This document shows positions 28,126-60,340 of a stretch of DNA of 64,000 nucleotides, piece by piece. The notes under the pieces are model-generated. The model saw only the letters and a program-made list of their open reading frames with translations, was not told the DNA's origin and did not search any database. The stretch's first letter is position 1. Each line of letters opens with the position of its first letter. Position numbers and translations under genes: made by a program. The DNA lies in the NCBI RefSeq assembly GCF_900104635.1, contig NZ_FNWC01000007.1, positions 1,649,421-1,713,420 on the forward strand, given 5' to 3'. The DNA is from Coprococcus phoceensis (GTDB lineage Bacteria; Bacillota; Clostridia; Lachnospirales; Lachnospiraceae).

Positions 28126-28391
28126 TTGAAATCATTTCCAATTCCCCTAACTGCAGCTGAAGAACAATACTATATACAAAAATATATCGAGGGTGACCTT
28201 GAGGCGAAACACATCTTGATCGAGCGGAACTTGCGCCTTGTCGCCCATGTCATCAAAAAATATCAATACTTAGACGATGATCCGGAAGATTTGATCTCCA
28301 TCGGAACGATCGGGCTGATCAAAGCAGTTGCAACTTTTAATCCTTCTAAAAATAATCGTCTCGGAACCTATGCTGCAAGATGTATTGAAAA
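28126..28391 (+). CDS. sigK: Sporulation sigma factor SigK, 5' part (interrupted gene)
   Basis: Codons 1-88 of SigK from a TTG at 28126, which has AGAGGTG six bases before it; the GTG at 28117 has no room for a binding site. An in-frame TAA at 28111 excludes any longer start. The product KSFPIPLTAAEEQYYIQKYI, IERNLRLVAHVIKKY, DPEDLISIGTIGLIKAV, NRLGTYAARCIEN matches SigK region 2 up to the 'CIENEI' point. There SigK homology stops; the frame runs on for 56 unrelated codons into the inserted element. Because it begins at FPIPL, it lacks the pro-sequence of Bacillus SigK. Confidence 0.95.
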
Positions 28392-28398
28392 TGCTATC
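28387..28398 (+). other. Left junction of the sigK element (attL)
   Basis: GAAAATGCTATC here aligns codon for codon with GCAAACGAGATC at 59,984-59,995. Identical cores are AAA (28,389-28,391) and ATC (28,396-28,398). In B. subtilis the skin crossover lies in the same Glu-Asn-Glu codons (AATGA), which favours the AAA-t/c-G core and would restore the canonical Glu-Asn-Glu-Ile. Confidence 0.85.
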
Positions 28399-28445
28399 CT
28401 ATCGCCAATGGGGTTTTACTCCCGGGAGAAATCCCCCAGCAAGGA

Positions 28446-29042
28446 TTGCAGTCACATTGGAAGGTATTTACAAAGTTTTCAGATGAAAATTATCTCATGT
28501 GCAGAACAGAAGACGGCATTGTACAGTACGCTCCTCTGTGCATCCATACATTCCGGCTGATTGCTCCCCGCAAGCTCCTGGAAGCCCAGCAGTTCAATCA
28601 GCAGTATCACAGCTACGAAGAAATACAAAATGTTCCTGACCGTCTGCGCTGGTGCCGCCACCACATGGGTCTGATGCAGAAAGAGGTTGCAGAACAGATT
28701 GGAATCTCCAGAGGACACTATATAGATTATGAAGTGGGATATGTTGATTACTACCCGAAAGAAGTGGTGGACAGGCTGGCAGACTTCTATCATATCCCGG
28801 TTGAAGACCTTCTGGATGAATACAATCTTTTCTTATATAAAGGTCAGGGGAAAATGCTAAAAGAGTGCCGGGAAAAAATGGGGTTAAAGAAGAAACCCTT
28901 TGCGAGAATGCTGCATGTGGATCCAAATACTTACCGGAACTGGGAATCAGATAAAAAAAGAATGTTTAAGCTTACCTGGGAAAAGTATTTTCGTGAAGTG
29001 CTCTTAGCCAATCAGAATGCATCAAATCAGAATAACATTTGA
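28446..29042 (+). CDS. Helix-turn-helix (XRE-like) regulator at the element's left end
   Basis: Up to 198 residues. Two HTH parts are visible: VPDRLRWCRHHMGLMQKEVA then EQIGISRGHYIDYEVG (about residues 63-98), and MLKECREKMGLKKKPFARML then HVDPNTYRNWES (about 137-168). The start is doubtful: TTG 28446 and ATG 28497 both lack a clear ribosome binding site. The frame is open upstream to the left junction but closed by a TGA at 28386 inside sigK. After excision it would be continuous with the recombinase frame. It may thus be expressed only, or differently, from the circle. Confidence 0.75.
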   Translation: MQSHWKVFTKFSDENYLMCRTEDGIVQYAPLCIHTFRLIAPRKLLEAQQFNQQYHSYEEIQNVPDRLRWCRHHMGLMQKEVAEQIGISRGHYIDYEVGYVDYYPKEVVDRLADFYHIPVEDLLDEYNLFLYKGQGKMLKECREKMGLKKKPFARMLHVDPNTYRNWESDKKRMFKLTWEKYFREVLLANQNASNQNNI

Positions 29043-29303: not shown

Positions 29304-29512
29304 CTCCCCGGTATTTCAGTTTATGAACGAGAAGTTGTCCGCTATTCTTCCGGAGACTGTTTCCTTTTTCTGCATCATCAGATTAAATTTGATGTTATAA
29401 TATATAGAAGAAACGCATTAAAACTTCTTTGTGATACCATCTTATCAGGGAGTTTGCAAAAGCTCATTGAGCGCAGTTTGAGCATAAATTGACCAGGATC
29501 AGGAGGAAATAT

Positions 29513-31822
29513 ATGGAACGCTGCGATTTCAGTTCAATCATTACCACGGTTCGCAAATATATCGGCGATGACAGAGGAATGAATCAGATTGATCTGCTTT
29601 ATGAATTGTTTGAAGGTTTTCTTGAAGAGGAATCTTCACAGGACTTTGATTTTGACAACGGTCTTGTCTGCCGCTGGTTTAACGGACAGGCCCGGATCAG
29701 CCCCCGCATCTCCGGATATTATCTCCATACAGACAACAGGAACCGTCTGGCTGATGATATAGAAACAAATATTCTGCCGCTAATGTGTGACAGCGCAATG
29801 GCAATACAGGAAATCTACAAGATCCTGATACAGGATGGAACTATTTCCGATCAGAAAAAAGAACAGCTTACTCAGGATTACCCGTGTCATACTTCTGAAG
29901 AACAGGCTGCTTTTCTTGCGTCTGTTCTTTGCTTTGGAATGGAACGGACATTTGTTAAAAGGAACGCTGCCACCAAAAAACTGCTTGCTGCCGGAACACT
30001 GTCTCCGGTAATCAGTGATTTTGTTTATAACGGAGAAGTTCCCAAGGCGTGTGCTCATTTCTGCGGAAGGAATCAAGAGCTTTCCACACTTCACGAATTA
30101 ATTTCAGAAAAGCGGATCATTTTTCTGCAGGGGATTGCCGGTATCGGGAAAAGCGAGCTTGCCAAAGCATATGCAAGAGCTTACAGAAAAGACTATACAA
30201 ATATTTTGTATCTGACCTACAGCGGTGATCTGCGGCAGGATATCATTGATCTGGACTTTGTGGATGATCTGCCGGAGGACACGGAAGAAGACCGTTTCCG
30301 CAAGCACAACCGTTTCCTGCGGTCACTAAAAGAAGATACTTTGCTTATCATAGACAACTTTAATACTACAGCCGGAAAAGACGCCTTCTTCTCTGTACTG
30401 TTAAAATACCGCTGCCGTATCCTTTTTACTACCCGAAGCCGTTTTGATAACTATGCGTCTTTCAATCTTGGCGAAATATCTGATCCTGATGCTTTATTGT
30501 CACTAATGGGATATTTCTACTCAGATGCAAAGAGGAAACAGTCTATCCTGAAACAAATTATTCAGACCGTTCACAGCCATACACTGGCGGTAGAATTATC
30601 CGCACGGCTGTTGGAAACAGGTATCCTGGAACCACAGGAATTACTGGCACGGCTACAGGTTGAAAAATCTGCCCTTGGCGCAACGGATACCATTGATATC
30701 GTAAAAGACGGACAAAGTCGGAAAGCTACCTATTATGAGCATATACATACGTTGTTTTCTCTGTATCGTCTCTCCGAGGAAGAACTTAATATTATGCGGG
30801 GGCTGATTTTTGTTCCCGTCAGCGGAGTCAGCGGACGACTGTATGCAAACTGGATGAAACTTTCGGACATGAACAGGATCAATGACCTGATTGAGAAAGG
30901 CTTTGTACAGACACAATCCGGAAGACAGATTTCTCTTCATCCCATGATACAGGAAGTGGCAATTGACGAGACCAGACCGTCAGTAAATAACAGTGCTGTA
31001 CTGCTTGACAGCCTGCAAACCATCTGTCTGCTACATGGACATGACGTCACCTGGTACAAACCGCTGTTTCTGACCATCGAGAACATCATTCGGGAGATTG
31101 CAGATGACAATACGCCGGCTTATTTGAGTTTTCTGGAAGATGTATTTCCCTACATGGAAAAGTACCACTATACAGCTGGAATGGAATTAATCATCGGCAA
31201 ATTATCCGGGCTGCTCACAGATGAAACTGTCGGGCGCAGTACAGACCGGGCGGTCCTGCTGGATTATCGTGCCGCCTGTGAAGAGAAAACGGAAAAAGCC
31301 ATCAAACTGGAAAAGGAAGCCATCGCCCTGATCCCGGAGATCTCAGAAGAAAATGCTCACCTTGTTTCCAATCTCTACTCCAATCTGGGCGGGCTTTACA
31401 AAAAGGCAGGGAAACGGGATCTGGCACAGCAGGCTATGGAGCAGGGGCTTCGGATCCTGGAACAGTATGATCTGCTTTACTACCATGACAGCATTGCCCA
31501 GACTGCGAACTATGCCGTTCTCCTTACTGAAATGGGGCAGCCGGAAAAAGGGCTCTCCGCTCTAAAAAAACTATCCCGGATGATCCGGGACTTGAACTCT
31601 GACCAGACCATGGATTACGCTACAGTTCAGGAAGCAATAGGCGGTATCTGCCTGGCTACAGGCGATATCCGTCAGGCCACCACTCATTTCAAAAAAGCTC
31701 TGGCTATCTATGAAGCGGTACATAATGGGGAACCGGATATGATTGAGACAAAAAAGCAGGAAATCCTTCAGGCTTATACACAGACAGGGATAGCCTTAGG
31801 ACAACAGCTGCTTAATAATTAG
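29513..31822 (+). CDS. STAND NTPase: NB-ARC domain with C-terminal TPR repeats
   Basis: 769 residues from ATG 29513 with CAGGAGGAAATAT upstream. Residues 1-190 are a helical domain of unknown type. The NTPase core follows: CGRNQELSTLHELISEKRII, Walker A FLQGIAGIGKSELAKAYARA, Walker B TLLIIDNFNT, and sensor RILFTTRSRF. A winged-helix-like region and a tetratricopeptide array (about residues 600-760, e.g. VSNLYSNLGGLYKKAGKRDL) complete it. STAND proteins oligomerise upon ligand binding and act in signalling or anti-phage defence. No toxic effector domain is recognisable at either end. It stands alone between terminators. Confidence 0.88.
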   Translation: MERCDFSSIITTVRKYIGDDRGMNQIDLLYELFEGFLEEESSQDFDFDNGLVCRWFNGQARISPRISGYYLHTDNRNRLADDIETNILPLMCDSAMAIQEIYKILIQDGTISDQKKEQLTQDYPCHTSEEQAAFLASVLCFGMERTFVKRNAATKKLLAAGTLSPVISDFVYNGEVPKACAHFCGRNQELSTLHELISEKRIIFLQGIAGIGKSELAKAYARAYRKDYTNILYLTYSGDLRQDIIDLDFVDDLPEDTEEDRFRKHNRFLRSLKEDTLLIIDNFNTTAGKDAFFSVLLKYRCRILFTTRSRFDNYASFNLGEISDPDALLSLMGYFYSDAKRKQSILKQIIQTVHSHTLAVELSARLLETGILEPQELLARLQVEKSALGATDTIDIVKDGQSRKATYYEHIHTLFSLYRLSEEELNIMRGLIFVPVSGVSGRLYANWMKLSDMNRINDLIEKGFVQTQSGRQISLHPMIQEVAIDETRPSVNNSAVLLDSLQTICLLHGHDVTWYKPLFLTIENIIREIADDNTPAYLSFLEDVFPYMEKYHYTAGMELIIGKLSGLLTDETVGRSTDRAVLLDYRAACEEKTEKAIKLEKEAIALIPEISEENAHLVSNLYSNLGGLYKKAGKRDLAQQAMEQGLRILEQYDLLYYHDSIAQTANYAVLLTEMGQPEKGLSALKKLSRMIRDLNSDQTMDYATVQEAIGGICLATGDIRQATTHFKKALAIYEAVHNGEPDMIETKKQEILQAYTQTGIALGQQLLNN

Positions 31823-34089: not shown

Positions 34090-34638
34090 ATGACACATTT
34101 TCTCACGCCGGGCAGCCAGATCCTGAACTATCTGGTATTCCCAAAATTTTTACTGGAAATAGATGATCTGAATGAGACAGCAAAGATCCTTTACATGATC
34201 CTGCTCGACCGGGCAAGGCTGTCACAGAAGAATGACAGATGGACGGATGAAAATGGCCATGTATACCTCTTCTTCACCATACCCTCTCTGGCAGACGCCA
34301 TGCATAAGAGCGAAATGACCATCAAAACGGCGCTGAAAGCACTGGAAGAAAAACAGCTCATTTATCGAAAGCGTCAGGGGATCGGACGTCCTAACCGCAT
34401 CTATGTAAAGTATCCGGATGCCCTGCCGTCCACAGACAGAAAACTGTCCATCAGGGAGACAGAAAACTGTCTGTCAGAGAGACAGGATCTTGTCTGTCAG
34501 AAAGACAGGAATCTGTCCGGTAGTAAAAATAAGAAGAACAAATATCAAGAGAGAAACCGATGGGATCGGGGAAACCGCATTCCTTACGGCCCCGGTTCCG
34601 ACCGGAAATATGAATGCAAGGAGGAGGAAAGCCTATGA
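34090..34638 (+). CDS. RepA_N-type plasmid replication initiator
   Basis: 182 residues, ATG with GAGGGGAGGTAG upstream. The N-terminus FLTPGSQILNYLVFPKFLLE, 'LNETAKILYMILLDRARLSQ', GHVYLFFTIPSLADAMHKSE and 'TALKALEEKQLIYRKRQGIGRPNRIYV' is the RepA_N initiator winged-helix domain. The C-terminal third is a low-similarity basic/acidic tail shorter than in large RepA_N proteins. Four 23-bp iterons lie within the gene, just as origins of RepA_N plasmids lie inside rep. The initiator likely binds them. Confidence 0.86.
   Translation: MTHFLTPGSQILNYLVFPKFLLEIDDLNETAKILYMILLDRARLSQKNDRWTDENGHVYLFFTIPSLADAMHKSEMTIKTALKALEEKQLIYRKRQGIGRPNRIYVKYPDALPSTDRKLSIRETENCLSERQDLVCQKDRNLSGSKNKKNKYQERNRWDRGNRIPYGPGSDRKYECKEEESL
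34435..34517 (+). repeat. Four 23-bp iterons, putative plasmid origin
   Basis: Palindromic 14-mers begin at 34,435, 34,458, 34,481 and 34,504, exactly 23 bases apart: GACAGAAAACTGTC twice, then GACAGGATCTTGTC and GACAGGAATCTGTC, separated by TGTCAGAGA-like spacers. The exact period, the symmetry and the location inside a RepA_N gene indicate initiator binding sites. Confidence 0.82.
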
Positions 34639-35447
34639 CCTTAAAAGAGGACGAATATTTAAACGAAGCGGACGGGCTCATTTACTGTTCCAAATGCCAT
34701 ACGCCGCGGCAGTGCAGAGTCCAGCTTGGCGGGAAAGAATTCCGTCCGGCCATACGGTGCCGCTGTCAGCAGGACGCATACGAACAGCAGGAGAAAGAAC
34801 GGAAACAGCGGGAATTCCTGGAGCATATCTCACGGCTCAAAGCCAGCGGCCTGCAGGACAAAGCGCTGCGGGATTATAACTTTTCCAATAACAAAGGCTA
34901 TAATCCGGAAATCCGGAAAGCACATGAGTATGTCGCCCACTGGAAGGAGATGAAAGAAAAGTCTCTGGGGCTTCTGCTCTGGGGAGATGTAGGAACAGGG
35001 AAATCCTTTTTTGCCGGATGTATCGCTAACGCACTGTTGGAACAGGGCGTGCCGGTTCTGATGACCAATTTTGCCCGCATCCTGAACACCTTGACCGGGA
35101 TGTACTCCGATGACCGGAACCGGTTCATTGAAAGCTTCAATCAATACAGCCTGCTGATCATCGATGACCTTGGCGTAGAACGCAGTTCTGAGTTTGCCCT
35201 GGAGCAGGTATTCAGTGTCATCGACAGCCGTTACCGGAGCAGGAAACCCATAATCATCACAACAAATCTGACTCTGGAAGAGCTGAAAAAACCGCAGGAT
35301 CTGGCACACGCCAGAATTTATGACCGCATACTGGAGCGCTGTATTCCCGTGAAGATCAGCCGTCAGAATATACGGGAGATGAATGCCGCTTCTAACCTGA
35401 AAGCAGTACGGAAACTGTTCCAATCTGACACCGTGGACAGGAAATAG
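34635..35447 (+). CDS. DnaC/IstB-like helicase-loader ATPase
   Basis: 270 residues from ATG 34635 (AAGGAGGAAAGCCT). An N-terminal cysteine region (LIYCSKCHTPRQCRVQLGGK, RCRCQQ) probably binds zinc. The AAA core has Walker A LLLWGDVGTGKSFFAGCIAN, Walker B SLLIIDDLGVERSSEFA and sensor 'RKPIIITTNLTLEEL' with the arginine finger region 'YDRILERCIPV'. It would load the host DnaB helicase at the element's origin. It overlaps the rep gene by four bases, so both are coupled. Confidence 0.9.
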   Translation: MTLKEDEYLNEADGLIYCSKCHTPRQCRVQLGGKEFRPAIRCRCQQDAYEQQEKERKQREFLEHISRLKASGLQDKALRDYNFSNNKGYNPEIRKAHEYVAHWKEMKEKSLGLLLWGDVGTGKSFFAGCIANALLEQGVPVLMTNFARILNTLTGMYSDDRNRFIESFNQYSLLIIDDLGVERSSEFALEQVFSVIDSRYRSRKPIIITTNLTLEELKKPQDLAHARIYDRILERCIPVKISRQNIREMNAASNLKAVRKLFQSDTVDRK

Positions 35448-36135: not shown

Positions 36136-37854
36136 ATGATCGTTATCGCAATTTACCATATGTCGGCAAAAGTGGTCAGCCGTGGCGCAGGCCGTTCCGC
36201 CGTTGCTGCTTCTGCCTATCTTAGTTGCAGTCGCATGTATAATGATTACGATGGTGTCCAGCATGATTATACCCGGAAACAGGGACTTATTTTTCAGGAA
36301 GTCCTTCTCCCTCCAAAGGCTTCACCAGAATGGAAAGATCGGGAGCAGCTCTGGAATGCCGTGGAACGAGCCGAGAAAACCAAAGACAGCAGGCTTGCCA
36401 GAGAATTTGTTGTCGCACTTCCCATTGAACTGCCAAGGAAGGCACAAATCTCATTACTCCGTGATTTCATCCAAAATAATTTTGTCGATATGGGAATGTG
36501 TGCTGACTTTGCGATCCACGACACAGACGGTCATAATCCCCACGCCCATATCCTGCTAACCGTCCGCCCGCTGGAAACTGACGGAACCTGGCAGTATAAA
36601 ACACAGAAAGAATACCTCTGCATCAGGAATGGGGAAGAAAAAGGCTTTACTGCCTCCGAATTTAAAGATGCTCAGACAAAGGGGTGGGAAAAGCAATATC
36701 CTTATAAAGTCGGAAAAAAAAAGGTATATATGACACCTTCAGCAGCCCAGGAACATGGTTATATCCGAGCAGACAAACATCCGAAAAGCACCCGTTTCGG
36801 CAGACAGAATCCTGTTTCAGAACAGTGGAACAGCGAAGCACAGCTTCGAGAATGGCGGAAAGCATGGGCAGATGCAGTCAACCATACTTTACAGGAACAT
36901 CAGATCGACACCCGGATAGATCACCGTAGTTTTGCTGATCAGGGACGTGATGAACAGCCTACCATCCATGAGGGATACCATGCAAGAGATATGGAGAAGA
37001 AAGGATTGATTTCCGACCGCTGTGAGATCAACCGGCAGATACGATCAGACAATCGACTCTTCCGGGAATTAAAACGGCAGGTAGAAAAACTGGCAAAGAC
37101 AATCAGCGCAAATATCCCTGCCATCGCCAGACGATTGGAACAGCTCCGGGGTACAATGATTATGATCCGCTATTATCTGTTCCATAACCGTATGCAGGCA
37201 TCCTCCGCAAGTAAATGGATCTCTATGATCACACCGGTTTTGAAGAAATACAAAGCCATCACAAAGACAATCCGGACAAAGCAGGCTGAAAAGAAGTCCC
37301 TCCAGTCACAGAAAAAGGAACTCAACTTTCTGCAGCCGGTTCAGTACTATCAGATCAGCCGGAAGATCACGACTCTTACTGAGGATATTGAGGAATTACT
37401 ATCGCTGAAAGAACGACTTATCTCTGATAATTATTTTCACAATGAATCTGAAATTAAAACTAGCGAATTAACTCTACAAAAACAGCAAGATTTTTTAAAT
37501 AAACTGAACTTACAAAACGAAAACTTATGGAACCAGCTAACAGAAAATCAAAAACTATTTCAGGAAATAAAAAAAACTGTTTGCTCTGAAAAATTGGAGG
37601 AACTGTTTGACACCAGAGCTGATATGAGAGAAACCGTCAGAAATCAGATTTATCAGAAATTATCTCAGACAATAGGACAGGAATTCGATACATCCCTGTT
37701 TTATGACTCTGTCAGAGATATAGATAACCGCCTACTTGAAGATTCAGAAGCATTCCGTACCCAAGCTTTTCAAAAACAGATTGCAAAAGAATTGGGATTC
37801 AGGAAAGATCAATCTAGCCTGCAAAAAAGAAAAATTCAAGATTATCAACGATAA
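36136..37854 (+). CDS. mobA: MobA/MobL-family relaxase
   Basis: 572 residues. The N-terminal relaxase has IAIYHMSAKVVSRGAGRSAV then AASAYLS (family start), 'LAREFVVALPIELPRKAQIS' and the metal-binding HUH motif IHDTDGHNPHAHILLTVRP. The remaining 300 residues are long coiled coil, AT-rich toward the end (37,430-37,600). It nicks oriT and pilots single-stranded DNA to a recipient with a helper conjugation system. The ATG at 36136 abuts the AGGAAGGAG site; homologues begin at the Ala-Ile-Tyr six codons later, where this copy has ATC instead of ATG. The start is thus slightly uncertain. Confidence 0.92.
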   Translation: MIVIAIYHMSAKVVSRGAGRSAVAASAYLSCSRMYNDYDGVQHDYTRKQGLIFQEVLLPPKASPEWKDREQLWNAVERAEKTKDSRLAREFVVALPIELPRKAQISLLRDFIQNNFVDMGMCADFAIHDTDGHNPHAHILLTVRPLETDGTWQYKTQKEYLCIRNGEEKGFTASEFKDAQTKGWEKQYPYKVGKKKVYMTPSAAQEHGYIRADKHPKSTRFGRQNPVSEQWNSEAQLREWRKAWADAVNHTLQEHQIDTRIDHRSFADQGRDEQPTIHEGYHARDMEKKGLISDRCEINRQIRSDNRLFRELKRQVEKLAKTISANIPAIARRLEQLRGTMIMIRYYLFHNRMQASSASKWISMITPVLKKYKAITKTIRTKQAEKKSLQSQKKELNFLQPVQYYQISRKITTLTEDIEELLSLKERLISDNYFHNESEIKTSELTLQKQQDFLNKLNLQNENLWNQLTENQKLFQEIKKTVCSEKLEELFDTRADMRETVRNQIYQKLSQTIGQEFDTSLFYDSVRDIDNRLLEDSEAFRTQAFQKQIAKELGFRKDQSSLQKRKIQDYQR

Positions 37855-39097: not shown

Positions 39098-39204
39098 ATT
39101 TCCTGAACCTCTTCCTTGTGTTACGAACTTACAATATAAAAACATCATTAAAATGTTTTGTAAATCTTTATTATGATTCAAACATTTTATCATATATTTT
39201 TTCA

Positions 39205-39252
39205 GATAAAAAGGGATTGATGCTTTGATAAAAGTCTCAATCCCTTTTTGAA
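39205..39252 (-). terminator. Terminator of the sugar operon
   Basis: AAAGGGATTGA (39,210-39,220) and TCAATCCCTTT (39,237-39,247) form a perfect 11-bp stem; T-runs flank both sides. It follows the GH13 gene, the last gene of the minus-strand operon. Confidence 0.82.
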
Positions 39253-39290
39253 CGATATAAATTAGATTATTGCATGTAAATGCACATATA

Positions 39291-41412: not shown

Positions 41413-41504
41413 ATCATTCTCCGTACGATGCTTGCAAAAGCATATTCTCATACATATCCTTTCTATAGAGTAACTGTTTTTCTTTACTAAAGTTCTTTTT
41501 TAAT

Positions 41505-42569: not shown

Positions 42570-42581
42570 TGCTCCTCCTTT

Positions 42582-45775: not shown

Positions 45776-45778
45776 TCT

Positions 45779-45820
45779 ACAAACCGGGATATTTCTTTTA
45801 AGGAACTTTTCCCGGTTTGT
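45779..45820. terminator. Bidirectional terminator between regulator and kinase gene
   Basis: ACAAACCGGGA and TCCCGGTTTGT form a perfect 11-bp stem around a 20-base loop between two converging genes, with T-rich DNA after it on the plus strand and AT-rich DNA on the other side. Confidence 0.8.
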
Positions 45821-45841
45821 ATTTAATTTGAAAAAGCATAT

Positions 45842-47335: not shown

Positions 47336-47348
47336 TATCAAATCCCCC

Positions 47349-48635: not shown

Positions 48636-48659
48636 TTCTTCACTCCGTTTTACTCCATT

Positions 48660-49772: not shown

Positions 49773-49816
49773 CACATCCTCCTTTTCTTTTTTATCAAAA
49801 CAGAACTTGTCTGTTT

Positions 49817-50851: not shown

Positions 50852-50866
50852 CTATTATTTCCCTCA

Positions 50867-52219: not shown

Positions 52220-53202
52220 CTTTCCTTCTCCTTCCCAGCACAATGGCATGCTATACAATGGCCGTTTCCAATATCATTTAATTCAGGTCTTAATTCTCTA
52301 CACTTTTGGGAAGCATATTGACAGCGTGTATGAAATCTGCAACCGCTTGGAGGATTTAACGGACTCGGAACCTCGCCTTCAAGATAAATCTGCTTTCTTT
52401 CTGCATCTACATCCGGAATTGGAATAGCTGATAACAGCGCTTGGGTATACGGATGAAGCGGATTAGAAAACAGTTCATTTTTCTCCGCTATTTCTACAAT
52501 ACTTCCCAAATACATAACTGCAACTCGGTCACTTATATGCTTTACTACACTTAAATCATGAGAAATAAATAAGTAAGACAAATTATATTTCTTCTGGATA
52601 TCATGAATCAGATTTAGAACCTGACTCCTTATAGATACATCTAGGGCCGAGACCGGTTCATCACACACAATAAATTCTGGATTTAAAATCAATGCCCTTG
52701 CAATAACTATTCTTTGACGTTGCCCCCCCGAAAACTCATGTGGATACCGATTCATCGCATCAGCATTTAGGCCGACTATTTTTGCCATTTCAAGCACTTT
52801 TTCAATCCGTTCTTCTTTAGTTCCAATTTTATACACATCAAGCGGCGCTTTAATTATTTCCATTACTGTCATTCTCGGATTAAGTGACGCGTACGGATCC
52901 TGGAAAACCATCTGCAATTTTCGTCTCATTTTCCGCATTTCATCTTTACTAAATTGCAGCAAATCTTTGTTCTCATACAAAACTTTCCCTTCAGTTGGCT
53001 CAATAAGTCTAAGAACACATCTTCCAAATGTAGACTTTCCACAACCGCTTTCTCCAACTAACCCCAAAGTCTCTCCTCTTTTTATGTCAAGAGATACATT
53101 ATCAACCGCTCTAAGTTTTTGTCCTTTTTCCAAAAAACTTCTTCCAACGTCAAACTCTTTGGTCAATCCCTCAATCCGTATAAACCTCTCGTTATGATCC
53201 AT
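52216..53202 (-). CDS. Opp/Dpp-type ABC transporter ATPase (OppF-like)
   Basis: 328 residues: Walker A GLVGESGCGKSTFGRCVLRL, Q-loop MVFQDPYASLNPRMT, signature HEFSGGQRQRIVIARALILN, Walker B EFIVCDEPVSALDVSIRSQ, H-loop LFISHDLSVVKHISDRV. The C-terminal extension has the four-cysteine pattern RFHTRCQYASQKC of oligopeptide importer ATPases. Second ATPase of a five-gene importer; its neighbours suggest an oligosaccharide rather than a peptide as cargo. Confidence 0.95.
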   Translation of the reverse strand: MDHNERFIRIEGLTKEFDVGRSFLEKGQKLRAVDNVSLDIKRGETLGLVGESGCGKSTFGRCVLRLIEPTEGKVLYENKDLLQFSKDEMRKMRRKLQMVFQDPYASLNPRMTVMEIIKAPLDVYKIGTKEERIEKVLEMAKIVGLNADAMNRYPHEFSGGQRQRIVIARALILNPEFIVCDEPVSALDVSIRSQVLNLIHDIQKKYNLSYLFISHDLSVVKHISDRVAVMYLGSIVEIAEKNELFSNPLHPYTQALLSAIPIPDVDAERKQIYLEGEVPSPLNPPSGCRFHTRCQYASQKCRELRPELNDIGNGHCIACHCAGKEKER

Positions 53203-53203
53203 A

Positions 53204-54196
53204 CTAATTTGACTCCTCTCTGTTTGTATCGTCGTATAAAAAACAACGAATCATCCGTCCTTCCCTATGTATCAATTCAGGATTCTCCTCTCTGCACCTT
53301 GTCATTGCTGATGGACACCTGTCGCAAAACCTACAACCTTTAGGCATTTTCTTCAAGCTCGGAACAACACCTTCAATTGTATATAAACGATCAACACTTT
53401 TCGACAAAGAGGGAATGGAAGCAAGCAATCCTCGTGTGTAAGGATGCATGGGATTTTTAAAAAGCTCTCTCTTTTCTGCTTTTTCCACTACATTTCCCGC
53501 ATACATCACCATAATCTCATCAGCCATTTCTGCAACAATTCCCATATCATGTGTAATAAGGATAATAGACGTACCGGAATTAGTTTGTAATTCCTTCATA
53601 AGTTTCACAATCTGTGCCTGTATCGTCACATCCAATGCGGTAGTTGGTTCATCCGCAATCAATATTTCTGGATTGCACGATAACGCCATTGCAATCATAA
53701 TTCTTTGTCTTTGTCCCCCACTCAACTGGTGAGGATATTGCTTCATTTTTGCTTCAGGCGATGGTATTCCAACTTTTTTTAACATCTCCAACGCCTTCTG
53801 TCGTGCCTGTTTCTTTTTCATATTCTGATGAATAATAAATGGTTCCATCATTTGCTTCTCAATAGTCATAACCGGATTTAACGAAGTCATTGAATCTTGA
53901 AAAATCATTGCAATTTCATTTCCTCTGATTCGGCACATTTCTTTTTTACTTACTTCTGTCAGTTCACGATCATGAATTTTTACAGACGACTCGTCATCAA
54001 TCTTTGTATTTCTCTCAGAAAGCAGTTTCAACATCGATAAACAAGTTACACTTTTTCCGCATCCACTTTCTCCAACAATTCCTAAAGTTTTTCCTCGCTG
54101 TAAGGAAAAGCTGACGTCTTGTACGGCATAAAACAGTTCTTTATCTGACCAGAAACCTACTTTCAGATTATTGACATTCAATACGGTGCTTTCCAT
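53204..54196 (-). CDS. Opp/Dpp-type ABC transporter ATPase (OppD-like)
   Basis: 330 residues from ATG 54196 with GGAGGAGTGAAG. Walker A IVGESGCGKSVTCLSMLKLL, Q-loop MIFQDSMTSLNPVM, signature HQLSGGQRQRIMIAMALSCN, Walker B EILIADEPTTALDVTIQAQ. C-terminal cysteines in CRFCDRCPSAMTRC. It pairs with the OppF-like subunit to drive the two permeases. No defects seen. Confidence 0.95.
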   Translation of the reverse strand: MESTVLNVNNLKVGFWSDKELFYAVQDVSFSLQRGKTLGIVGESGCGKSVTCLSMLKLLSERNTKIDDESSVKIHDRELTEVSKKEMCRIRGNEIAMIFQDSMTSLNPVMTIEKQMMEPFIIHQNMKKKQARQKALEMLKKVGIPSPEAKMKQYPHQLSGGQRQRIMIAMALSCNPEILIADEPTTALDVTIQAQIVKLMKELQTNSGTSIILITHDMGIVAEMADEIMVMYAGNVVEKAEKRELFKNPMHPYTRGLLASIPSLSKSVDRLYTIEGVVPSLKKMPKGCRFCDRCPSAMTRCREENPELIHREGRMIRCFLYDDTNREESN

Positions 54197-54216
54197 CTTC
54201 ACTCCTCCAAATCTGA

Positions 54217-55083
54217 CTATATTTTCATTTTCGGGTCCAAAGCATCTCTCAATCCATCTCCAAACAAGTTAATGCTCAAAATTGTTATCAACAGGCATAT
54301 TCCTGGCGGAAGCCACATCCATGGCTTAGAAGATATAACAGAAACTGACTGTGCTGCATACAACATATTCCCCCAAGATGCTTCTGGAACCTGTACTCCC
54401 ATTCCTAAAAAGCTAAGTCCCGATTCCTGCAAAACAGCATTTGCAATACCAAAAGTAAACGCAATAATAATTGGAGCAAAAGCGTTGGGCAAAATATAGC
54501 GAAACATAATAACAAAATTAGATGTTCCAATAGCTCTCGCCCCTTCTATATAATCTTTTTCTCTGACAGATATAACGCTTCCATATAGTTGCCTGGCAAA
54601 TCCTGGCCACCCCATTATACCAATCACAACAGTCGCCGATGTTATTGAAGGACCGATCACTGAAACAAGTACTAATACAAATACCATTGATGGAAATGAC
54701 AGAAAAACATCAGCAATACGCATTATAACTGTTTCCGCTATTCCGCGATAAAACCCTGCTATCATTCCCAGAGGAACTCCGATTGCAAAACTGATCAATA
54801 CAGAAAAAAATCCAACAAATAAAGAAGTCCTTCCACCATAAATTAATCTCGCAAACAAGTCCCGACCTGTGCTGTCTGTCCCTAATATATGTTCTTTACT
54901 AGGGGCGGAACCAAATCCGCTGTAAATTTCATAAGGTTCCAACTTCATAAGTAATGGCAAAAGAAAGAGTAAAACTAATTCTACCAACAACACGCATAAG
55001 CCTGCCATAGCCAGTCTGTGTGTGCAAAATCTTTTTATTACATCTTTCATATATGAACTCTTCTGCACTTTATCTACCTCCAA
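54217..55083 (-). CDS. ABC importer permease (OppC/DppC-like)
   Basis: 288 residues with an N-terminal membrane helix (LAMAGLCVLLVELVLLFLLP), the OppC-type GTDSTGRDLFARLIYGGRTS loop, further helices and the EAA loop 'YIEGARAIGTSNFVIMFRYI'. It forms half of the membrane channel with the OppB-like gene, whose stop is adjacent (the start and stop codons nearly touch). Six membrane segments in total. Confidence 0.94.
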   Translation of the reverse strand: MEVDKVQKSSYMKDVIKRFCTHRLAMAGLCVLLVELVLLFLLPLLMKLEPYEIYSGFGSAPSKEHILGTDSTGRDLFARLIYGGRTSLFVGFFSVLISFAIGVPLGMIAGFYRGIAETVIMRIADVFLSFPSMVFVLVLVSVIGPSITSATVVIGIMGWPGFARQLYGSVISVREKDYIEGARAIGTSNFVIMFRYILPNAFAPIIIAFTFGIANAVLQESGLSFLGMGVQVPEASWGNMLYAAQSVSVISSKPWMWLPPGICLLITILSINLFGDGLRDALDPKMKI

Positions 55084-56037
55084 TCACCTGGACACCCTTG
55101 GATCCAGTACACTATAAAACAAGTCAATCACAATATTTCCTACCAGAACAAATCCTGCAATCAACACAGTAATTCCCATTATTGTTGGATAATCCCTGTA
55201 ATTAATTGACTGAACCATTAACGTACCCATCCCCGGCCAGCCAAACACCTGTTCTGTAATAATAGTGCCTCCAATCAAAGCCGGAAGTGATAAACCTACT
55301 TGTGTAACTAATGGAATCAATGAATTTTTTAGAGCATGTTTAAAAATCACCGTTTTTTCTCTCAGTCCTTTTGCCCGAGCAGTTCTTATGTAGTCATCAC
55401 TTAACACTTCCAGCATACTGCTTCTCATATATCTCGTATAAACACCTACATATTGAAGCATCAGAGTTATAACCGGAAGAATAATATGGTGTACCAATGT
55501 CGCTAAATTTTGTGGTCCCTGCACATCATACATGCCACTTGTTGGCAACCATCCAGCCTTTATGCTAAACACATAAATGAGAATCATAGCCGCAAAAAAA
55601 TTAGGAGTTGCCGCACCAATAAAAGCAAATACAGACGAGCCATAATCCCATGCAGAATAAGGTTTATATGCCGATATAATCCCTAACGGGATTGCAATAA
55701 CAAGGGCAATAATAAGGGCTGTAACCGTAAGCATTAATGTCGGACCTATTCTCTCAGCAACCATTCCCGCTACTGGTCGCATTGTTCTATACGACGTCCC
55801 AAGGTTACCCGAGAGTACATTTTTCAACCATATGAGATACTGAACATATACCGGCTGATCCAGTCCTAACTGAGCCTCTAACCTTTCCACGTCACTTTCC
55901 GTCAAATTACTAGTACTTCCAAGTATCATTTCCACCGGACTCCCCGGAGCCAAAGATGCCAAAACATACACAAGCACTGTTATTCCTAGAAATGTAAGTA
56001 TGGCAATCAACATTCGTTTAACAATATACTTCGCCAT
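55084..56037 (-). CDS. ABC importer permease (OppB/DppB-like)
   Basis: 317 residues starting MAKYIVKRMLIAILTFLGIT, the conserved OppB N-terminal helix, then LAPGSPVEMILG, periplasmic loop, five more helices and the EAA loop DYIRTARAKGLREKTVIFKH. The first gene of the permease-ATPase block. A separate promoter or regulated read-through from the binding-protein gene is likely because of the hairpin at 56,158-56,201. Confidence 0.94.
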   Translation of the reverse strand: MAKYIVKRMLIAILTFLGITVLVYVLASLAPGSPVEMILGSTSNLTESDVERLEAQLGLDQPVYVQYLIWLKNVLSGNLGTSYRTMRPVAGMVAERIGPTLMLTVTALIIALVIAIPLGIISAYKPYSAWDYGSSVFAFIGAATPNFFAAMILIYVFSIKAGWLPTSGMYDVQGPQNLATLVHHIILPVITLMLQYVGVYTRYMRSSMLEVLSDDYIRTARAKGLREKTVIFKHALKNSLIPLVTQVGLSLPALIGGTIITEQVFGWPGMGTLMVQSINYRDYPTIMGITVLIAGFVLVGNIVIDLFYSVLDPRVSR

Positions 56038-56078
56038 TAATTCTCGACTCCTCCTGTCTTATTATTTTTATACTTATA

Positions 56079-56141
56079 TATTATCGTTTATTATTTAATT
56101 TGTCAATATTTTCTTTCATTTACAATTGTTTATTATCGTTT
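56079..56141. promoter_or_regulatory. Two TATTATCGTTT repeats, putative operators
   Basis: TATTATCGTTT occurs at 56,079-56,089 and 56,131-56,141, exactly 52 bases or about five helical turns apart, in the 215-base gap before the OppB-like gene. Related TCGTTT motifs are found upstream of the binding-protein gene at about 57,899 and 57,941. They are candidate sites for the DeoR regulator. Confidence 0.42.
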
Positions 56142-56157
56142 TCAAGCTTTTTAAATC

Positions 56158-56201
56158 AAAACGGCGTATTCTTGTAAAACTAATTCAACAATACGCCGTT
56201 T
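56158..56201 (-). terminator. Hairpin between binding-protein and permease genes
   Basis: AAACGGCGTATT and AATACGCCGTTT form a perfect 12-bp stem with a 20-base loop, followed on the minus strand by TTTTGATTTAAAAA. It would partly stop transcription after the binding-protein gene, giving more binding protein than permease, as is usual in such importers. Confidence 0.68.
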
Positions 56202-56252
56202 CATCACTATATTACCCCAAATGCAGAATCCATATAATAAGGGCAAATATAT

Positions 56253-57881
56253 TTACTTAACTTTCCAATTCCAATAATCAAATACAGACGAAGACATGTC
56301 GCTTGTATTCATATTGCTGAGTCTATTATTATAAATAACCGTTATGTCCGGTGCATAAAGAAAGTAATAGCATGACGCATCAGCCTGCCATAATTGCAGT
56401 TCACTCGTATATTTCTTTTCTTCTTCTTCCGTAAGTGCCGTTGCAATTTTGCTATATAATTCCTGACCTGTTGGATCTGTTACATGTGCAAGGTTATATA
56501 CCCCCCCTATTGTAAAGAAGTCCTGATTTTCCAACGGATTAGCACCATCACTTGAAGTTTTCATTATTGCAAAATCAGCTTCCTTATCACGCATCATCTG
56601 CATCATTGTCGACAAATCTACTGATTGAGCATTTACCTTTACTCCTATTTCCTCCATATCACGTTGAAATAACGTTGCAGTCTGCTCACGAAGACTGTCT
56701 CCAGTAACATAAAGAATAAGTAATTCTTGAGAAAAATCAAAATTATTCTCTTCCAAAATCTTTTTCGCTTGTTCTGGATCATACTTATTACTAAAACTTA
56801 CTTCTGAAATGGCAGGATCATAGTATTTATTATTACTTGCATACATTCCTTCTCTAATTTTTCCTTTTCCATCCAATAATTCTTCAACCATTTCCTCTCT
56901 GTTAATAGCCATATCAAATGCCTGGCGTGTGGTTTTATCAAACTTCTCATTATCGACAATAATCCATACCTGACCAGGAGACTCCAAAGACTCCACTGTC
57001 AGATAATCCTGTTCTTCAGCCATCGGAATATCTTCCAACGGGAACGACACTCTTCCTCCAGGTACTAAATCAACTTCACCGCTCATTAACGATGCAAGAA
57101 TATTGGTAGATGAAATACATCTGATCACAAGTTTGTCAAAATCAATATCCCCAAGATAATAATCGGGATTTGTAGTATATACCACGCGTTCTCCTGGCAC
57201 TGTACTTTCAAACATAAACGGACCATTTCCAACCGGATTGTTCCAAAAATCTGCTTCCATAAATTCCGACGGTTCCAAATCATTCAACATATGCTCCGGC
57301 AAAACAAAAAAGTAGGATGCCTGCTTCAAAAACATAGTATCTGACATTGCTTTTTTCAAATTCATTGACACTGTTAAATCATCAATCTTCTCTACCTCAA
57401 CGCTATCTGTAGATGTCTCTACCCCACTTTCATCTGTTCCCGCAATATTCTGAAAAAACTGTCTTCTGCTTGTCGTAATTTCTGCTTTTGTTATCATCTT
57501 ACAAGTAAAAACCACATCATCTGCAGTTACAGGCTCGCCGTCCTGCCATTTTGCATCAGGATTCAAATGAAATGTTATAGTCATATAATCATCACTCATT
57601 TCCCACGACTCTGCCAACCGTGGATACAAAACTCCTTGTGCACCTACTGCAACCAAATTATCAAACATCTGGTTACAAACTGTATCACCTACCACCCCCG
57701 TAGACGAATAAGGATTTAAGCTGTTCCATGTTTGATCATATGCCATTGTTACAACTTTTTCTTCCTGACTCGTATTTGTTTCTTCCAAATCGGTGCTTTC
57801 TGTTTTGCTTCCACATGCCGTCAATGCAAGCACAGCCACAATAATCGCACTAATCCATATTCTTTTTTTCGCTTTTTTCAT
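56253..57881 (-). CDS. Extracellular solute-binding lipoprotein, SBP family 5
   Basis: 542 residues. Signal peptide with lipobox: MKKAKKRIWISAIIVAVLAL then TACGS, where the cysteine is lipid-modified. The mature part is family 5 (peptide/nickel/oligosaccharide binding): 'SWEMSDDYMTITFHLNPDAK', WQDGEPVTADDVVFTCKM, 'RQAFDMAINREEMVEELL'. It captures the substrate outside and passes it to the two permeases. First gene of the upper operon, behind a 313-base promoter region shared with the recombinase. Confidence 0.95.
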   Translation of the reverse strand: MKKAKKRIWISAIIVAVLALTACGSKTESTDLEETNTSQEEKVVTMAYDQTWNSLNPYSSTGVVGDTVCNQMFDNLVAVGAQGVLYPRLAESWEMSDDYMTITFHLNPDAKWQDGEPVTADDVVFTCKMITKAEITTSRRQFFQNIAGTDESGVETSTDSVEVEKIDDLTVSMNLKKAMSDTMFLKQASYFFVLPEHMLNDLEPSEFMEADFWNNPVGNGPFMFESTVPGERVVYTTNPDYYLGDIDFDKLVIRCISSTNILASLMSGEVDLVPGGRVSFPLEDIPMAEEQDYLTVESLESPGQVWIIVDNEKFDKTTRQAFDMAINREEMVEELLDGKGKIREGMYASNNKYYDPAISEVSFSNKYDPEQAKKILEENNFDFSQELLILYVTGDSLREQTATLFQRDMEEIGVKVNAQSVDLSTMMQMMRDKEADFAIMKTSSDGANPLENQDFFTIGGVYNLAHVTDPTGQELYSKIATALTEEEEKKYTSELQLWQADASCYYFLYAPDITVIYNNRLSNMNTSDMSSSVFDYWNWKVK

Positions 57882-58194
57882 ACAGTTCCTCCTTGTCTTT
57901 TCGTTTACTTTTGTATGTTTTTATTTTCTATTATTATATATTCGTTTTTGTATATTGTCAACAACTTTCAATAGATAATGATAGTATTTTTAATAAAAAC
58001 GTGAGCTTATATTACTATTTTTTTGCATTGAAAAGAAAAAAACGACACATATAACAAAGAATCATAATTTATCAAAACAAATCTCAGCAATGTAACAAAA
58101 TAGCTTTATATATCTTGCACGATCTTTTATTTACCCAATTTATACTTTATGTTATAATTTTATATGTCATATATCATAAAATATGGAGGAAACC
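57882..58194. promoter_or_regulatory. 313-bp divergent region: sugar operon and recombinase promoters
   Basis: An AT-rich gap without a gene between the binding-protein gene (minus) and recombinase gene (plus). For the recombinase a sigma-A-like promoter TTTACC (58,130-58,135), 17 bases, TATAAT (58,153-58,158) is visible, then GGAGGAAACC before the ATG. On the other side TCGTTT motifs at about 57,899 and 57,941 may be operators. No convincing SigE promoter with a usable leader was found for the recombinase. Confidence 0.55.
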
Positions 58195-60048
58195 ATGAAC
58201 GGAAATGAGAAGTACATTGCCATTTATTCCCGGAAATCAAAGTTTACCGGAAAAGGCGAAAGTATCGGGAATCAGATAGAACTCTGTAAAGAATATATTC
58301 AAACTCATTATACTGAAATTCCACAGGATCATATTTTAGTGTATGAGGATGAAGGCTTTTCCGGCGGCAATCTCAACCGGCCGGACTTTAAAAAAATGAT
58401 GGAAGCTGCAAGGCAGCGTAAGTTCAAAGCGATCATTGTCTACCGCCTGGACCGAATCAGCCGGAATATCAGTGACTTTTCCAGCCTTATTGAAGAATTG
58501 TCAAGACTGGACATTGCTTTCATATCTATCCGAGAACAGTTTGATACCGGAACTCCCATGGGACGGGCCATGATGTATATAGCTTCTGTTTTTTCCCAGC
58601 TGGAGCGTGAAACCATAGCCGAGCGTATCAGAGATAATATGCATGAACTGGCGAAAACCGGACGATGGCTTGGGGGAACAACTCCCACAGGATATGCCTC
58701 AGAATCGGTACAGAAAGTTACCATAGACGGGAAAGCAAAAAAGGCCTGCAAGCTGAAACTGATACCGGAAGAATCAGAAATTGTCCGTCTGATCTACAGC
58801 CTGTATATCGAACACGATTCTCTGACTTCTGTAGAAGCAGAATTAATAAAGCGGGGACTTAAAACAAAAAACAATAAACTCTTTACCCGTTTTTCAATCA
58901 AGTCTATCTTACAGAATCCGGTTTACATGATCGCGGATGTAAACGCATATAACTTTTTTGTAAAAGAGAACGCAGATCTTAATTCTGCCAAAGATGAATT
59001 CGACAGCGTCCATGGCATGATGGTATATAACCGCACCAAACAGGAAAAAGGGAAAGCCGTCACCTATCTTCCGCCCGATGAATGGATTGTTGCGGTAGGT
59101 CTGCATCAGGGCATTGTTCCGGGCAAAGTCTGGATTTCTGTACAGGAGTCTCTGGATCGGAATAAAAGTAAGGCATACCGAAAGCCTCGGAATAACGAAG
59201 CACTCCTGACCGGTCTTTTATACTGCACCTGCGGCAGCCGTATGTATCCGAAGATCAGCAAGCGAAAAACTGCTGACGGGAAGCCGATATACACTTATGT
59301 ATGCAAATTAAAAGAGCGCAGCAAACGTTCAATGTGCAACAGTAAAAATGCCAATGGGAACACACTGGATCTGGCTGTGATCGAGCAGATCAAGCTGCTG
59401 GAAGATGACAAAGGTTTCTTCATTGACCAGCTGGAACAAAGCCGGAAATTCTATACCGGCAACCGTGCAGCCTATGAAGATCAGCTGGCTTCTATCGGTC
59501 ATGAGAAAGAAGAACTGGAAAAGAAAATTGAAGGTCTGGTTGATTCCCTGGCCGATTTGGGTGACAGCACGGTTAGGAATCAGGTGGCACGACGCATTGA
59601 ACAGCTGAATCAGAAATGTGAGGAAACAGACACCCGGATCCATGAACTGGAAGCACTGACTTCCCAGCACACTTTCAGCGATATCGAATTTGACGTCATG
59701 CGGCAACTGCTGTCCGTTTTCAAGACAAGCATAGATGAAATGACCGTAGAACAGAAACGTGCGGCGATCCGCACACTCGTCCGCAAAGTTGTATGGGACG
59801 GTGTCAACGCCCATATTATCCTCTTCGGGGTGCAGGATGATGAAATTGAATATCCGCCGCTTTCCTATCAAGCAAATGAAGCAGACAGCACAGAAGACGA
59901 CTTAGAAGAGTTGGAACGGTTCAGTGATGTGGATTATGAAGATGAAATCGCTGACGGCTCAAAAACTCATTGGGGTGAGGATAGCAAACGAGATCTTGAT
60001 GATGCTGCGCAGCAAAAAGAAAGTATCGAAAGAGATTTCTCTCTATGA
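58195..60048 (+). CDS. Large serine recombinase of the sigK element
   Basis: 617 residues from ATG 58195 (GGAGGAAACC). The N-terminal resolvase domain has IAIYSRKSKFTGKGESIGNQ with the catalytic serine in YSRKS, AIIVYRLDRISRNISDF and MGRAMMYIASVFSQLERETI. The recombinase and zinc-ribbon domains follow (LLTGLLYCTCGSRMYPKI with later Cys), then a coiled coil (about 440-520). This is the SpoIVCA/TnpX architecture. Its last 20 codons cross the right junction and are read from the sigK 3' half in another frame. After excision the frame instead enters the HTH gene at the left end. Confidence 0.96.
   Translation: MNGNEKYIAIYSRKSKFTGKGESIGNQIELCKEYIQTHYTEIPQDHILVYEDEGFSGGNLNRPDFKKMMEAARQRKFKAIIVYRLDRISRNISDFSSLIEELSRLDIAFISIREQFDTGTPMGRAMMYIASVFSQLERETIAERIRDNMHELAKTGRWLGGTTPTGYASESVQKVTIDGKAKKACKLKLIPEESEIVRLIYSLYIEHDSLTSVEAELIKRGLKTKNNKLFTRFSIKSILQNPVYMIADVNAYNFFVKENADLNSAKDEFDSVHGMMVYNRTKQEKGKAVTYLPPDEWIVAVGLHQGIVPGKVWISVQESLDRNKSKAYRKPRNNEALLTGLLYCTCGSRMYPKISKRKTADGKPIYTYVCKLKERSKRSMCNSKNANGNTLDLAVIEQIKLLEDDKGFFIDQLEQSRKFYTGNRAAYEDQLASIGHEKEELEKKIEGLVDSLADLGDSTVRNQVARRIEQLNQKCEETDTRIHELEALTSQHTFSDIEFDVMRQLLSVFKTSIDEMTVEQKRAAIRTLVRKVVWDGVNAHIILFGVQDDEIEYPPLSYQANEADSTEDDLEELERFSDVDYEDEIADGSKTHWGEDSKRDLDDAAQQKESIERDFSL
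59984..59995 (+). other. Right junction of the sigK element (attR)
   Basis: GCAAACGAGATC, aligned with GAAAATGCTATC at 28,387-28,398. To the right SigK coding resumes with Ile-Leu-Met-Met-Leu-Arg-Ser-Lys. Joining at the AAA core gives Glu-Asn-Glu-Ile-Leu-Met, the usual SigK sequence. The junction lies inside the recombinase gene, so integration state changes the recombinase C-terminus. Confidence 0.85.
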
Positions 60049-60340
60049 ACCAATCGGCACAGACCGTGAAGGAAACGAAATACAGCTTTTTGACATCATA
60101 GAAGCTGACGATGATGATGCACAGACAAAGGTTGCTCTCAAAGAGGATATTAAAATGCTCTACACAAAAGTTGAATCTGAACTTTCACCTCGCGAGCGGC
60201 TTGTTTTGAAAATGCGATACGGTCTCTACGACGAGGAAGAATATACACAGCGGGAAATCGCCGCTCAGCTTGGTATTTCTCGTTCCTATGTGTCTCGTAT
60301 TGAAAAAAGTGCAATAGAAAAACTGCGGGAATTTTTTTAG
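59987..60340 (+). CDS. sigK: Sporulation sigma factor SigK, 3' part
   Basis: About 117 codons from the junction to the stop. It continues SigK: NEILMMLRSKKKVSKEISLY, EPIGTDREGNEIQLFDI (region 3), then region 4 with ELSPRERLVLKMRYGLYDEE, EEYTQREIAAQLGISRSYVS and RIEKSAIEKLREFF. No start codon or ribosome binding site suits it; it can only be made after excision joins it to 28,126-28,391. The joined protein is 205 residues. SigK directs late mother-cell genes for spore coat and cortex. Confidence 0.95.
   Translation, partial: NEILMMLRSKKKVSKEISLYEPIGTDREGNEIQLFDIIEADDDDAQTKVALKEDIKMLYTKVESELSPRERLVLKMRYGLYDEEEYTQREIAAQLGISRSYVSRIEKSAIEKLREFF

Follow-up and report, generated by a model that had tools for sequence, protein, structure and literature searches.

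A plasmid-like element splits sigK in Coprococcus phoceensis and is likely excised by its own recombinase

In a stretch of 64,000 nucleotides from the genome of Coprococcus phoceensis (contig NZ_FNWC01000007.1, positions 1,649,421 to 1,713,420; hereafter the window), the sigma-factor gene sigK is interrupted by 31,597 bp of DNA that, judged by its genes, looks like a mobilizable plasmid that integrates. This plasmid-like element is likely removed in the mother cell by its own large serine recombinase, with a predicted small factor helping, which would restore a sigK of 205 codons. Textbooks illustrate programmed DNA excision in bacteria with the interruption of sigK, which is known mainly from Bacillus and Clostridioides difficile.

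The split sigK gene

Codons 1-88 of sigK lie at 28,126-28,391 and the remainder reaches 60,340. For both halves the best NCBIfam scores were those of the SigK models TIGR02846 (E ~1e-39) and PRK05803 (E ~1e-44), at values under the full-length SigK cut-offs, as expected of halves. An earlier note on this DNA had proposed that joining the halves at an AAA core gives an uninterrupted SigK of 205 residues; upon re-examination of the open reading frames (ORFs), the models and the alignment, we found both halves, the junction and the recombinase where it had placed them, and the computed join indeed yielded 205 codons in frame and free of stops. Features of a sigK-intervening element are present, namely an interrupted sigK, flanks that rejoin in frame and a site-specific recombinase at one end. 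We take the AATGA junction of the skin element of B. subtilis to fall on the Asn-Glu codons of sigK. The proposal that the window's break lies in the same codons as that of the B. subtilis skin agrees with this junction as published (PMC10745906).

We used TTG 28,126 as the start of sigK, while GTG 28,117 is likewise in frame and a stop lies at 28,111. With just three codons between the earliest in-frame start and the TTG, the window's SigK has no pro-sequence; several intact relatives have 4-8 open codons upstream of sigK, which also leaves no room for one, and other relatives have longer frames. The sigma type of the promoter region upstream (Table 1) is assigned by consensus.

A second intact sigK elsewhere in the genome had been named beforehand as evidence against programmed excision. 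A TIGR02846 profile search of the genome (3,599,803 bp in 7 contigs, completeness 100) detected the two halves, with no match exceeding the cut-off, and the split gene is therefore the only copy of sigK detected. The other matches, one long (SigE) plus weaker sigma-factor matches, were all below the cut-off. We rejected the long one (C7:1919978-1920613) as a second SigK, since it scored 389 bits as SigE versus 262 as SigK, even though it does exceed the looser PRK05803 cut-off of 252; its neighbour resembles spoIIGA by eye, with no family match at the cut used. An intact sigK in relatives, which the earlier note had suggested searching for, does exist: sigK is uninterrupted and 81% identical in a genome of the same genus (G123), and it is also uninterrupted in many family members. 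As for the flanks of the split gene, previously given as comM and trhP, the YifB/ComM-type ATPase was over its cut-off, whereas TrhP was the other gene's best match yet stayed below it.

Two database proteins resemble the joined product. P0140, the nearest one listed when gaps are disregarded, is identical to the joined SigK of the window, junction included, apart from its start residue and 13 missing residues further on. P0152 equals it except for the start residue, one substitution and 12 residues lost at the junction, where the flanks share ATGCTGC. Because neither protein has a named source, the support that they lend is weak.

Recombinase and attachment sites

The recombinase has the Resolvase (PF00239), Recombinase (PF07508) and zinc-ribbon (PF13408) domains, all over their cut-offs. 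Its start is either 58,183 or 58,195 and its stop lies at 60,048. The idea that it ends at the right junction had to be corrected, as the frame crosses the junction, with 19 further codons beyond the core that consist of sigK DNA. AAA is common to the two attachment (att) sites, attL and attR, with the left-end core at 28,389-28,391, and the predicted circle carries the palindrome GGATAGCA-AA-TGCTATCC, which centres the crossover on AA (28,390-28,391 / 59,987-59,988). A comparison of 17 loci, two of them represented by attL alone, showed similar att sites, with slight deviations in L013, L084 and L053 and an attL that diverges in L072. A search of IMG/VR with the attP palindrome gave 0 matches. 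Upstream of the recombinase, TTTAC(C/T)-N17-TATAAT, a vegetative-type promoter, occurs in 13 of 17 loci.

A candidate directionality factor

Co-occurrence with the recombinase points to a gene of about 70 amino acids as the likely recombination directionality factor. This gene is present in 17/17 two-ended elements (15/15 of the first set plus two added) and lies at most 1.3 kb from attL in 16 of them, the two added copies being ~0.7 kb away by coordinates; the exception is L082, where it sits 139 bp from the recombinase. Besides the recombinase, it is the sole ORF of the window (of at least 40 amino acids) with relatives in all 15 two-ended elements of the first set, down to the one of 3.6 kb. 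Among 397 genomes of the family, 11 carried the small gene, 14 the recombinase and 10 both (Fisher 5e-16, uncorrected for kinship).

Upstream of the gene lies a block with GGACAA and CATA(G/A)ACT, the consensus of which was matched at 22 or more of 35 positions in 18/34 loci, each above all 200 of its own first-order Markov shuffles; three of these 18 (L061, L066, L071) have AATA instead of CATA. We read the block as probably sigma-E plus SpoIIID by the B. subtilis consensus. A second basis for this reading is the C. difficile case (PMC5025042).

Neither Pfam nor PHROGs gave anything significant for the small protein, and phage and plasmid records gave no match. Its relatives in the protein database number 335, and the named ones among the best 120 are hypothetical proteins. 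The predicted structure consists of two helices (predicted local distance difference test, pLDDT, 87.7; predicted template modelling score, pTM, 0.58).

A reading frame shared by recombinase, attP and a helix-turn-helix domain

The crossover lies inside a coding frame: attP is located within the recombinase reading frame, and on the predicted circle this frame runs through attP into a helix-turn-helix (HTH) frame, for a total of 814 codons. We count an attP placed inside the recombinase reading frame as a new feature. Frames were compared in the 74 loci that have the 3' part of sigK (SigK-C), that is, 73 relatives (see below) and the window. In 51 of them the recombinase ends exactly at the core, in 14 beyond it and in 9 before it, and all 65 recombinases that reach the core share one phase. 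In the 51, the sigK codons read AAT-GA, which creates a TGA stop; with AAC-GA in its place, which is what the window has, the recombinase frame stays open. On the circles of the 17 two-ended elements, 13 frames would cross the core and 4 would stop before it. An HTH homologue is entered in 9/17 (216, 216, 206, 206, 176, 162, 99, 93 and 93 codons), the three shortest being damaged, and the remaining 4 of the 13 crossing frames have tails of 16-50 residues. The recombinase of L031 stops short of the core, yet an HTH relative lies behind it.

A search with the 814-residue query, scored on residues 585-814, found six database proteins, five of which have 803-815 amino acids with recombinase, GE(D/N)SK-C and HTH in a row, one of the five, P0003, having a different end. 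In two of these five, the similarity of the extension to its closest predicted counterpart falls to 40-44%. P0004 (583 amino acids) combines the module with a different recombinase. P0001, a metagenomic protein from a 2,675-bp contig, matches the predicted circle ORF of the integrated Clostridium fessum element at 815/815 residues. As the two coding ends of that ORF are 19.8 kb apart in the chromosome, P0001 would stem from an excised, an unintegrated or a tandem copy; P0006, whose contig measures 401,826 bp, might come from a tandem copy.

A family of elements in sigK

To place the element among its relatives, we kept the best 80 of 423 recombinase relatives from a collection with one genome per species, with flanks reaching 10 kb. 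SigK-C lies downstream on the same strand in 73/80, and in 64 of these 73 the recombinase frame reaches the core; in L026, L040 and L057, 1.4-4.6 kb separate the recombinase from SigK-C. L078 and L080 have the 5' part (SigK-N) only, upstream of the recombinase. L010 ends at the core and L081 shows no SigK; the short contig L046 continues with codons that are SigK-like by eye. The two-ended elements measure from about 3.6 to 31.6 kb. Hosts of the family include Lachnospiraceae, Oscillospiraceae, Christensenellaceae, other Clostridia and Holdemania (Erysipelotrichia). The attribution of the window's element to a Lachnospiraceae-type host was right: the host belongs to that family in GTDB, as do other carriers including Sellimonas caecigallum.

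In L063 the recombinase is followed by an inverted SigK 5' part, which is the same kind of element inserted the opposite way. L088, a 38.8-kb viral contig of IMG/VR, also shows an inverted SigK 5' part after the recombinase, with a relative of the small gene present. L006 (G117:C1:350000-360000), a fragment of an element next to genes that are rplM-rpsI-like and lipoprotein-like by eye, contains a recombinase with 98% identity.

Recent movement is indicated by near-identical recombinase DNA in hosts whose sigK is only 70-73% alike. Over the 11/80 loci with recombinase DNA more than 80% identical to that of the window, to which this comparison extends, L005 reached 99.8% (1,794 bp) and L008 99.9% (1,683 bp), versus 70.0% and 72.7%, respectively, for the sigK 3' DNA. 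An association of the recombinase with the lack of a full-length SigK match (10/30 genomes that have a SigE-range best match only, versus 2/230, with the window's own genome and 136 genomes without matches left out) was set aside, as the cut of 1e-55 was chosen post hoc, counts were made by eye and genomes were treated as independent.

Parts of a plasmid module recur near the family recombinases: within the 80 flanks, RepA plus DnaC were seen 7 times, Mob 11 times (including L006) and ParM 4 times. Compared with the window, ParM (part), RepA and DnaC are 99-100% identical in Lachnoclostridium sp. An169 and Mob is 86% identical. In common with the window, the 25.4-kb element of Sellimonas caecigallum has its left end, RepA and DnaC, a Mob spread over two frames and the carbohydrate-binding module (CBM) domain at the cargo edge; no ParM was found among its ORFs of at least 120 amino acids, and it otherwise carries glycoside hydrolase (GH) and transport genes. 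The Catenibacillus element carries a GH1 and phosphotransferase system (PTS) pair. Within the 10-kb flanks of the 80 loci, nothing further of the window's sugar operon appeared, bar some similarities: ABC-transporter matches (26-51% in L068, the others mostly ATPases below 35%) and a few matches at 22-31%. The sole other sizeable gene of the 3.6-kb element L033 (3851-5146) encodes a 431-amino-acid AAA_14/DUF4143 protein with relatives in five more elements.

PLSDB contained six records, with recombinases all less than 60% identical. As a candidate for a free plasmid form, the one record whose gene context we examined was unrelated. Three C. difficile plasmid records of ~24 kb (NZ_CP149756.1, L127; NZ_CP149669.1; NZ_CP149734.1) each have a large serine recombinase; one of the three is circular, has mainly an ethanolamine-utilization operon besides the recombinase and resembles a metabolic island that was excised and then deposited as a plasmid.

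Content of the element

The features of the split gene and of the element are collected in Table 1. The cargo encodes a CBM4/9 protein, an amylase-type GH, a DeoC aldolase, three GFO/IDH/MocA oxidoreductases, a zinc dehydrogenase, an FGGY kinase and SDH_alpha and URO-D family proteins, together with an oligopeptide-type ABC transporter plus binding protein and one ORF without a family match. In the integrated state, TTG 28,446 is a possible start for the HTH protein. The STAND/TPR protein by the left end is 93% identical in the Sellimonas element and 60% identical in the C. fessum element.

Table 1. Features of the split sigK gene and of the intervening element (window positions)
Feature	Position	Strand	Basis and remarks
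sigK promoter region (GGAAAAGCACAA ... CATACATTATAC)	28062..28101	+	conserved upstream of intact sigK; window aligned with 15 intact relatives
sigK 5' part, codons 1-88 plus core	28126..28391	+	TTG start; no room for a pro-sequence
attL (GAAAATGCTATCC)	28387..28399	.	crossover AA at 28,390-28,391
HTH-domain frame opening exactly at the core	28392..29042	+	216 amino acids; continues the recombinase frame on the circle; domain scan
Candidate recombination directionality factor, ~70 amino acids	29091..29303	-	start codon uncertain; co-occurrence with recombinase
Promoter-like block of the factor gene (GGACAA box, CATA -10)	29310..29347	-	conserved; type assigned by consensus
STAND-type NTPase with TPR repeats	29489..31822	+	domain scan; homologues in Sellimonas and C. 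fessum elements
ParM-like actin (plasmid partition)	32747..33682	+	PF17989; phrog_691 partition protein
RepA_N-type replication initiator	34090..34638	+	PF06970
DnaC/IstB-like ATPase (helicase loader type)	34614..35447	+	domain and NCBIfam scans
MobQ-family relaxase	36136..37854	+	PF03389, E 2.7e-90; NF041496 above cut-off
Carbohydrate cargo	38072..57881	-	Pfam scan; ~20 kb, middle of the element
DeoR-type regulator within the cargo	44,975-45,775	+	Pfam scan
Recombinase promoter, vegetative-type TTTACC-N17-TATAAT	58130..58158	+	same hexamer pair and spacing in 13/17 loci
Large serine recombinase	58195..60048	+	598 codons up to the core; last 19 codons from sigK DNA
attR (GGATAGCAAAC)	59979..59989	.	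core AAA at 59,986-59,988
sigK 3' part	59986..60340	+	ORF, NCBIfam models and junction join

Scanned with Pfam, the element's large ORFs showed no phage structural or packaging genes, on which ground we rejected a phage remnant, and no conjugation-pore or type IV secretion families. The label 'skin-like' given in the earlier note consequently fits the position and the logic of the element; its content is of another kind, namely a mobilizable plasmid type with sugar cargo. An integrase and a relaxase (MobQ over cut-off) without type IV secretion genes among the large ORFs are the marks of an integrative mobilizable element. A defence island was considered and dismissed, given that PADLOC returned nothing for the STAND protein and merely HTH-level matches for the HTH protein.

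Proposed mechanism and alternatives

In growing cells the element would reside in sigK, and the recombinase would be made with its end encoded by sigK DNA. Given its vegetative-type promoter, the recombinase is probably present in all cells, and we infer from C. difficile that on its own it only integrates. During sporulation of this strain, the small factor would likely be made in the mother cell at about the time that sigK is expressed and would reverse the reaction, so that the element is excised and SigK completed, whereas the spore would keep the split gene. Since SigK has no pro-sequence, excision would be the main known post-transcriptional gate on it. On the circle, the recombinase would carry the HTH domain. 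Rare excision in growing cells, combined with the relaxase and a helper, could lead to spread, with MobQ, RepA_N and ParM probably allowing the circle to be mobilized, held temporarily in a new cell and returned to sigK; we propose the mobilization step because of the gene content and the recent movement between species.

Several observations weigh against this mechanism. No excision product of the window's element was seen, P0140 and P0152 have in-frame deletions, and the best complete joined SigK among the 120 matches listed is only 92% identical. The factor gene went undetected in 4/14 recombinase genomes and occurs in one genome without the recombinase; 16/34 loci fall below 22/35 for its upstream block, the consensus of which was drawn from part of the same loci and is thus partly circular. 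The vegetative hexamers are missing upstream of the recombinase in 4/17 loci. In addition, the genome of L006, despite its 98% identical recombinase, has no SigK/SigE matches at 1e-40, and where the recombinase is a distant one, as in two genomes (43% and 55%), one genome has an intact sigK and the other a match in the SigK range. As an alternative, the element might be stuck, leaving sigK broken in a strain that no longer makes normal spores, as could be argued from the lack of a full-length joined SigK identical to the window's among the 120 proteins listed. We regard this as very unlikely: the parts look intact (a three-domain recombinase, both att sites, the factor gene and the promoters), recombinase DNA that is 99.8-99.9% identical in two hosts with sigK 70-73% alike speaks for recent movement, the circle junction of a sister element exists in nature (P0001), and P0140 is the joined gene bar the start residue and one gap. 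It is also improbable, if less so, that the ~70-amino-acid gene is some other conserved gene and that the HTH protein or another product sets the direction. No known family matches the small protein, its model has only two helices and the gene is absent from those four recombinase genomes. On the other hand, no ORF besides the recombinase is as constant across the 15 two-ended elements, the gene often has the expected promoter type, and its location near attL (at most 1.3 kb away in 14/15; in the remaining element it is separated from the recombinase by 139 bp) is like that of published factors, which sit near att sites or the integrase (PMC6957869).

Harder to set aside is the reading in which the shared frame is incidental, with the recombinase gene merely overlapping attP at its end and the HTH gene using a start of its own; we take it seriously, without preferring it. 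It accommodates the 7/17 two-ended elements that have no HTH homologue at the left end, four of which read through with tails of 16-50 residues, about the length expected by chance, as well as the TTG at 28,446, from which the HTH protein could start in the integrated state, the damaged HTH frames of L013, L022 and L023, and L031, where the recombinase stops before the core although an HTH relative lies behind it. It sits less well with 65/65 core-reaching recombinases being in one phase and stop-free before the core (these are related and so not independent), with six two-ended elements that have 162-216 open codons past the core, and with five database proteins of 803-815 amino acids that are continuous fusions, two of them with extensions as low as 40-44% alike. 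A bolder proposal, which we put forward tentatively and hold for somewhat doubtful, is that a single crossover reshapes two proteins: SigK would be completed, and the recombinase, otherwise ending on a stop borrowed from sigK, would become a recombinase-HTH fusion peculiar to the free circle. Such a fusion might signal the extrachromosomal state and alter the role of the recombinase in integration, autoregulation or plasmid maintenance, and the elements might be widespread mobilizable plasmids of gut Firmicutes that home in sigK and move sugar operons between species.

Comparison with known systems

The recombinase of the B. subtilis skin has a different orientation from that of the window's element. 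In the passages of the literature compared, a close parallel is the C. difficile skin (CD1231 / CD1234), with a constitutive recombinase under a sigma-A promoter, a 72-amino-acid factor under sigma-E and SpoIIID and a SigK without pro-sequence (PMC5025042). Both elements have the recombinase gene directly upstream of the sigK 3' part, a sigma-A-type recombinase promoter (predicted in the window), a SigK lacking a pro-sequence and a second gene of ~70 amino acids with a mother-cell-type promoter (again predicted in the window), which we liken by size and promoter type. According to the same passages, the C. difficile skin differs in being prophage-like and 14.6 kb long and in using another sigK site than the B. 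subtilis skin, whereas the window's element has a plasmid module and sugar cargo; the small protein, mostly basic here (pI 6.8-10.1), has a pI of 5.5 in C. difficile. The B. subtilis skin (SpoIVCA / Skr) has in common with the window a large serine recombinase and the codons of insertion, and its factor has 64 amino acids; as described in the parts compared, it differs by its 48 kb of mostly phage genes, a recombinase under sigma-E and a SigK with a pro-sequence.

Like gin, in gerE of Bacillus cereus, and a 22-kb sigK insertion in a B. cereus group lineage, the window's element is non-phage and splits a sporulation gene. The authors of the gin work think gin partly plasmid-derived and possibly moved by the conjugation genes of a host plasmid. 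Gin differs in having three serine recombinases, no structural conjugation genes of its own and gerE as its site, and the 22-kb insertion in carrying a restriction-modification system; a relaxase, a replication/partition module and sugar cargo are not mentioned for either in the passages compared. With integrative mobilizable elements it shares an integrase plus relaxase and the lack of conjugation machinery among the large ORFs scanned; unlike theirs, its target is a developmental gene, and excision is therefore predicted to be tied to sporulation. The switch of mycobacteriophage BPs, as far as the part of PMC4557955 compared describes it, also has attP within a coding frame, so that integration shortens a protein; there the shortened protein is the repressor, whereas here it would be the recombinase itself, losing an HTH domain.

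Among the papers listed from the open-licence literature, outside which most subscription papers fall, none dealt with sigK elements of Lachnospiraceae, with a plasmid module in such elements or with a recombinase whose stop codon comes from sigK. The part seen of a 2012 genome paper on a Lachnospiraceae relative (PMC3416734) mentions skin only for B. subtilis; further literature, likewise cited from parts, is PMC13141910 and PMC5595907.

Significance

Our findings indicate that, in gut Lachnospiraceae and other Clostridia, sigK repeatedly serves as the target of mobile elements, some of them plasmid-like, and that the one in the window carries metabolic genes. These findings bear on why sigK has been split so often. 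Sporulation genes may offer an element a safe harbour, as it would lose nothing by being excised in the doomed mother cell. A large set of recombinases gains a candidate factor in the family of ~70-amino-acid proteins, and the frame shared by recombinase, attP and HTH domain would be a testable, self-contained on/off switch.

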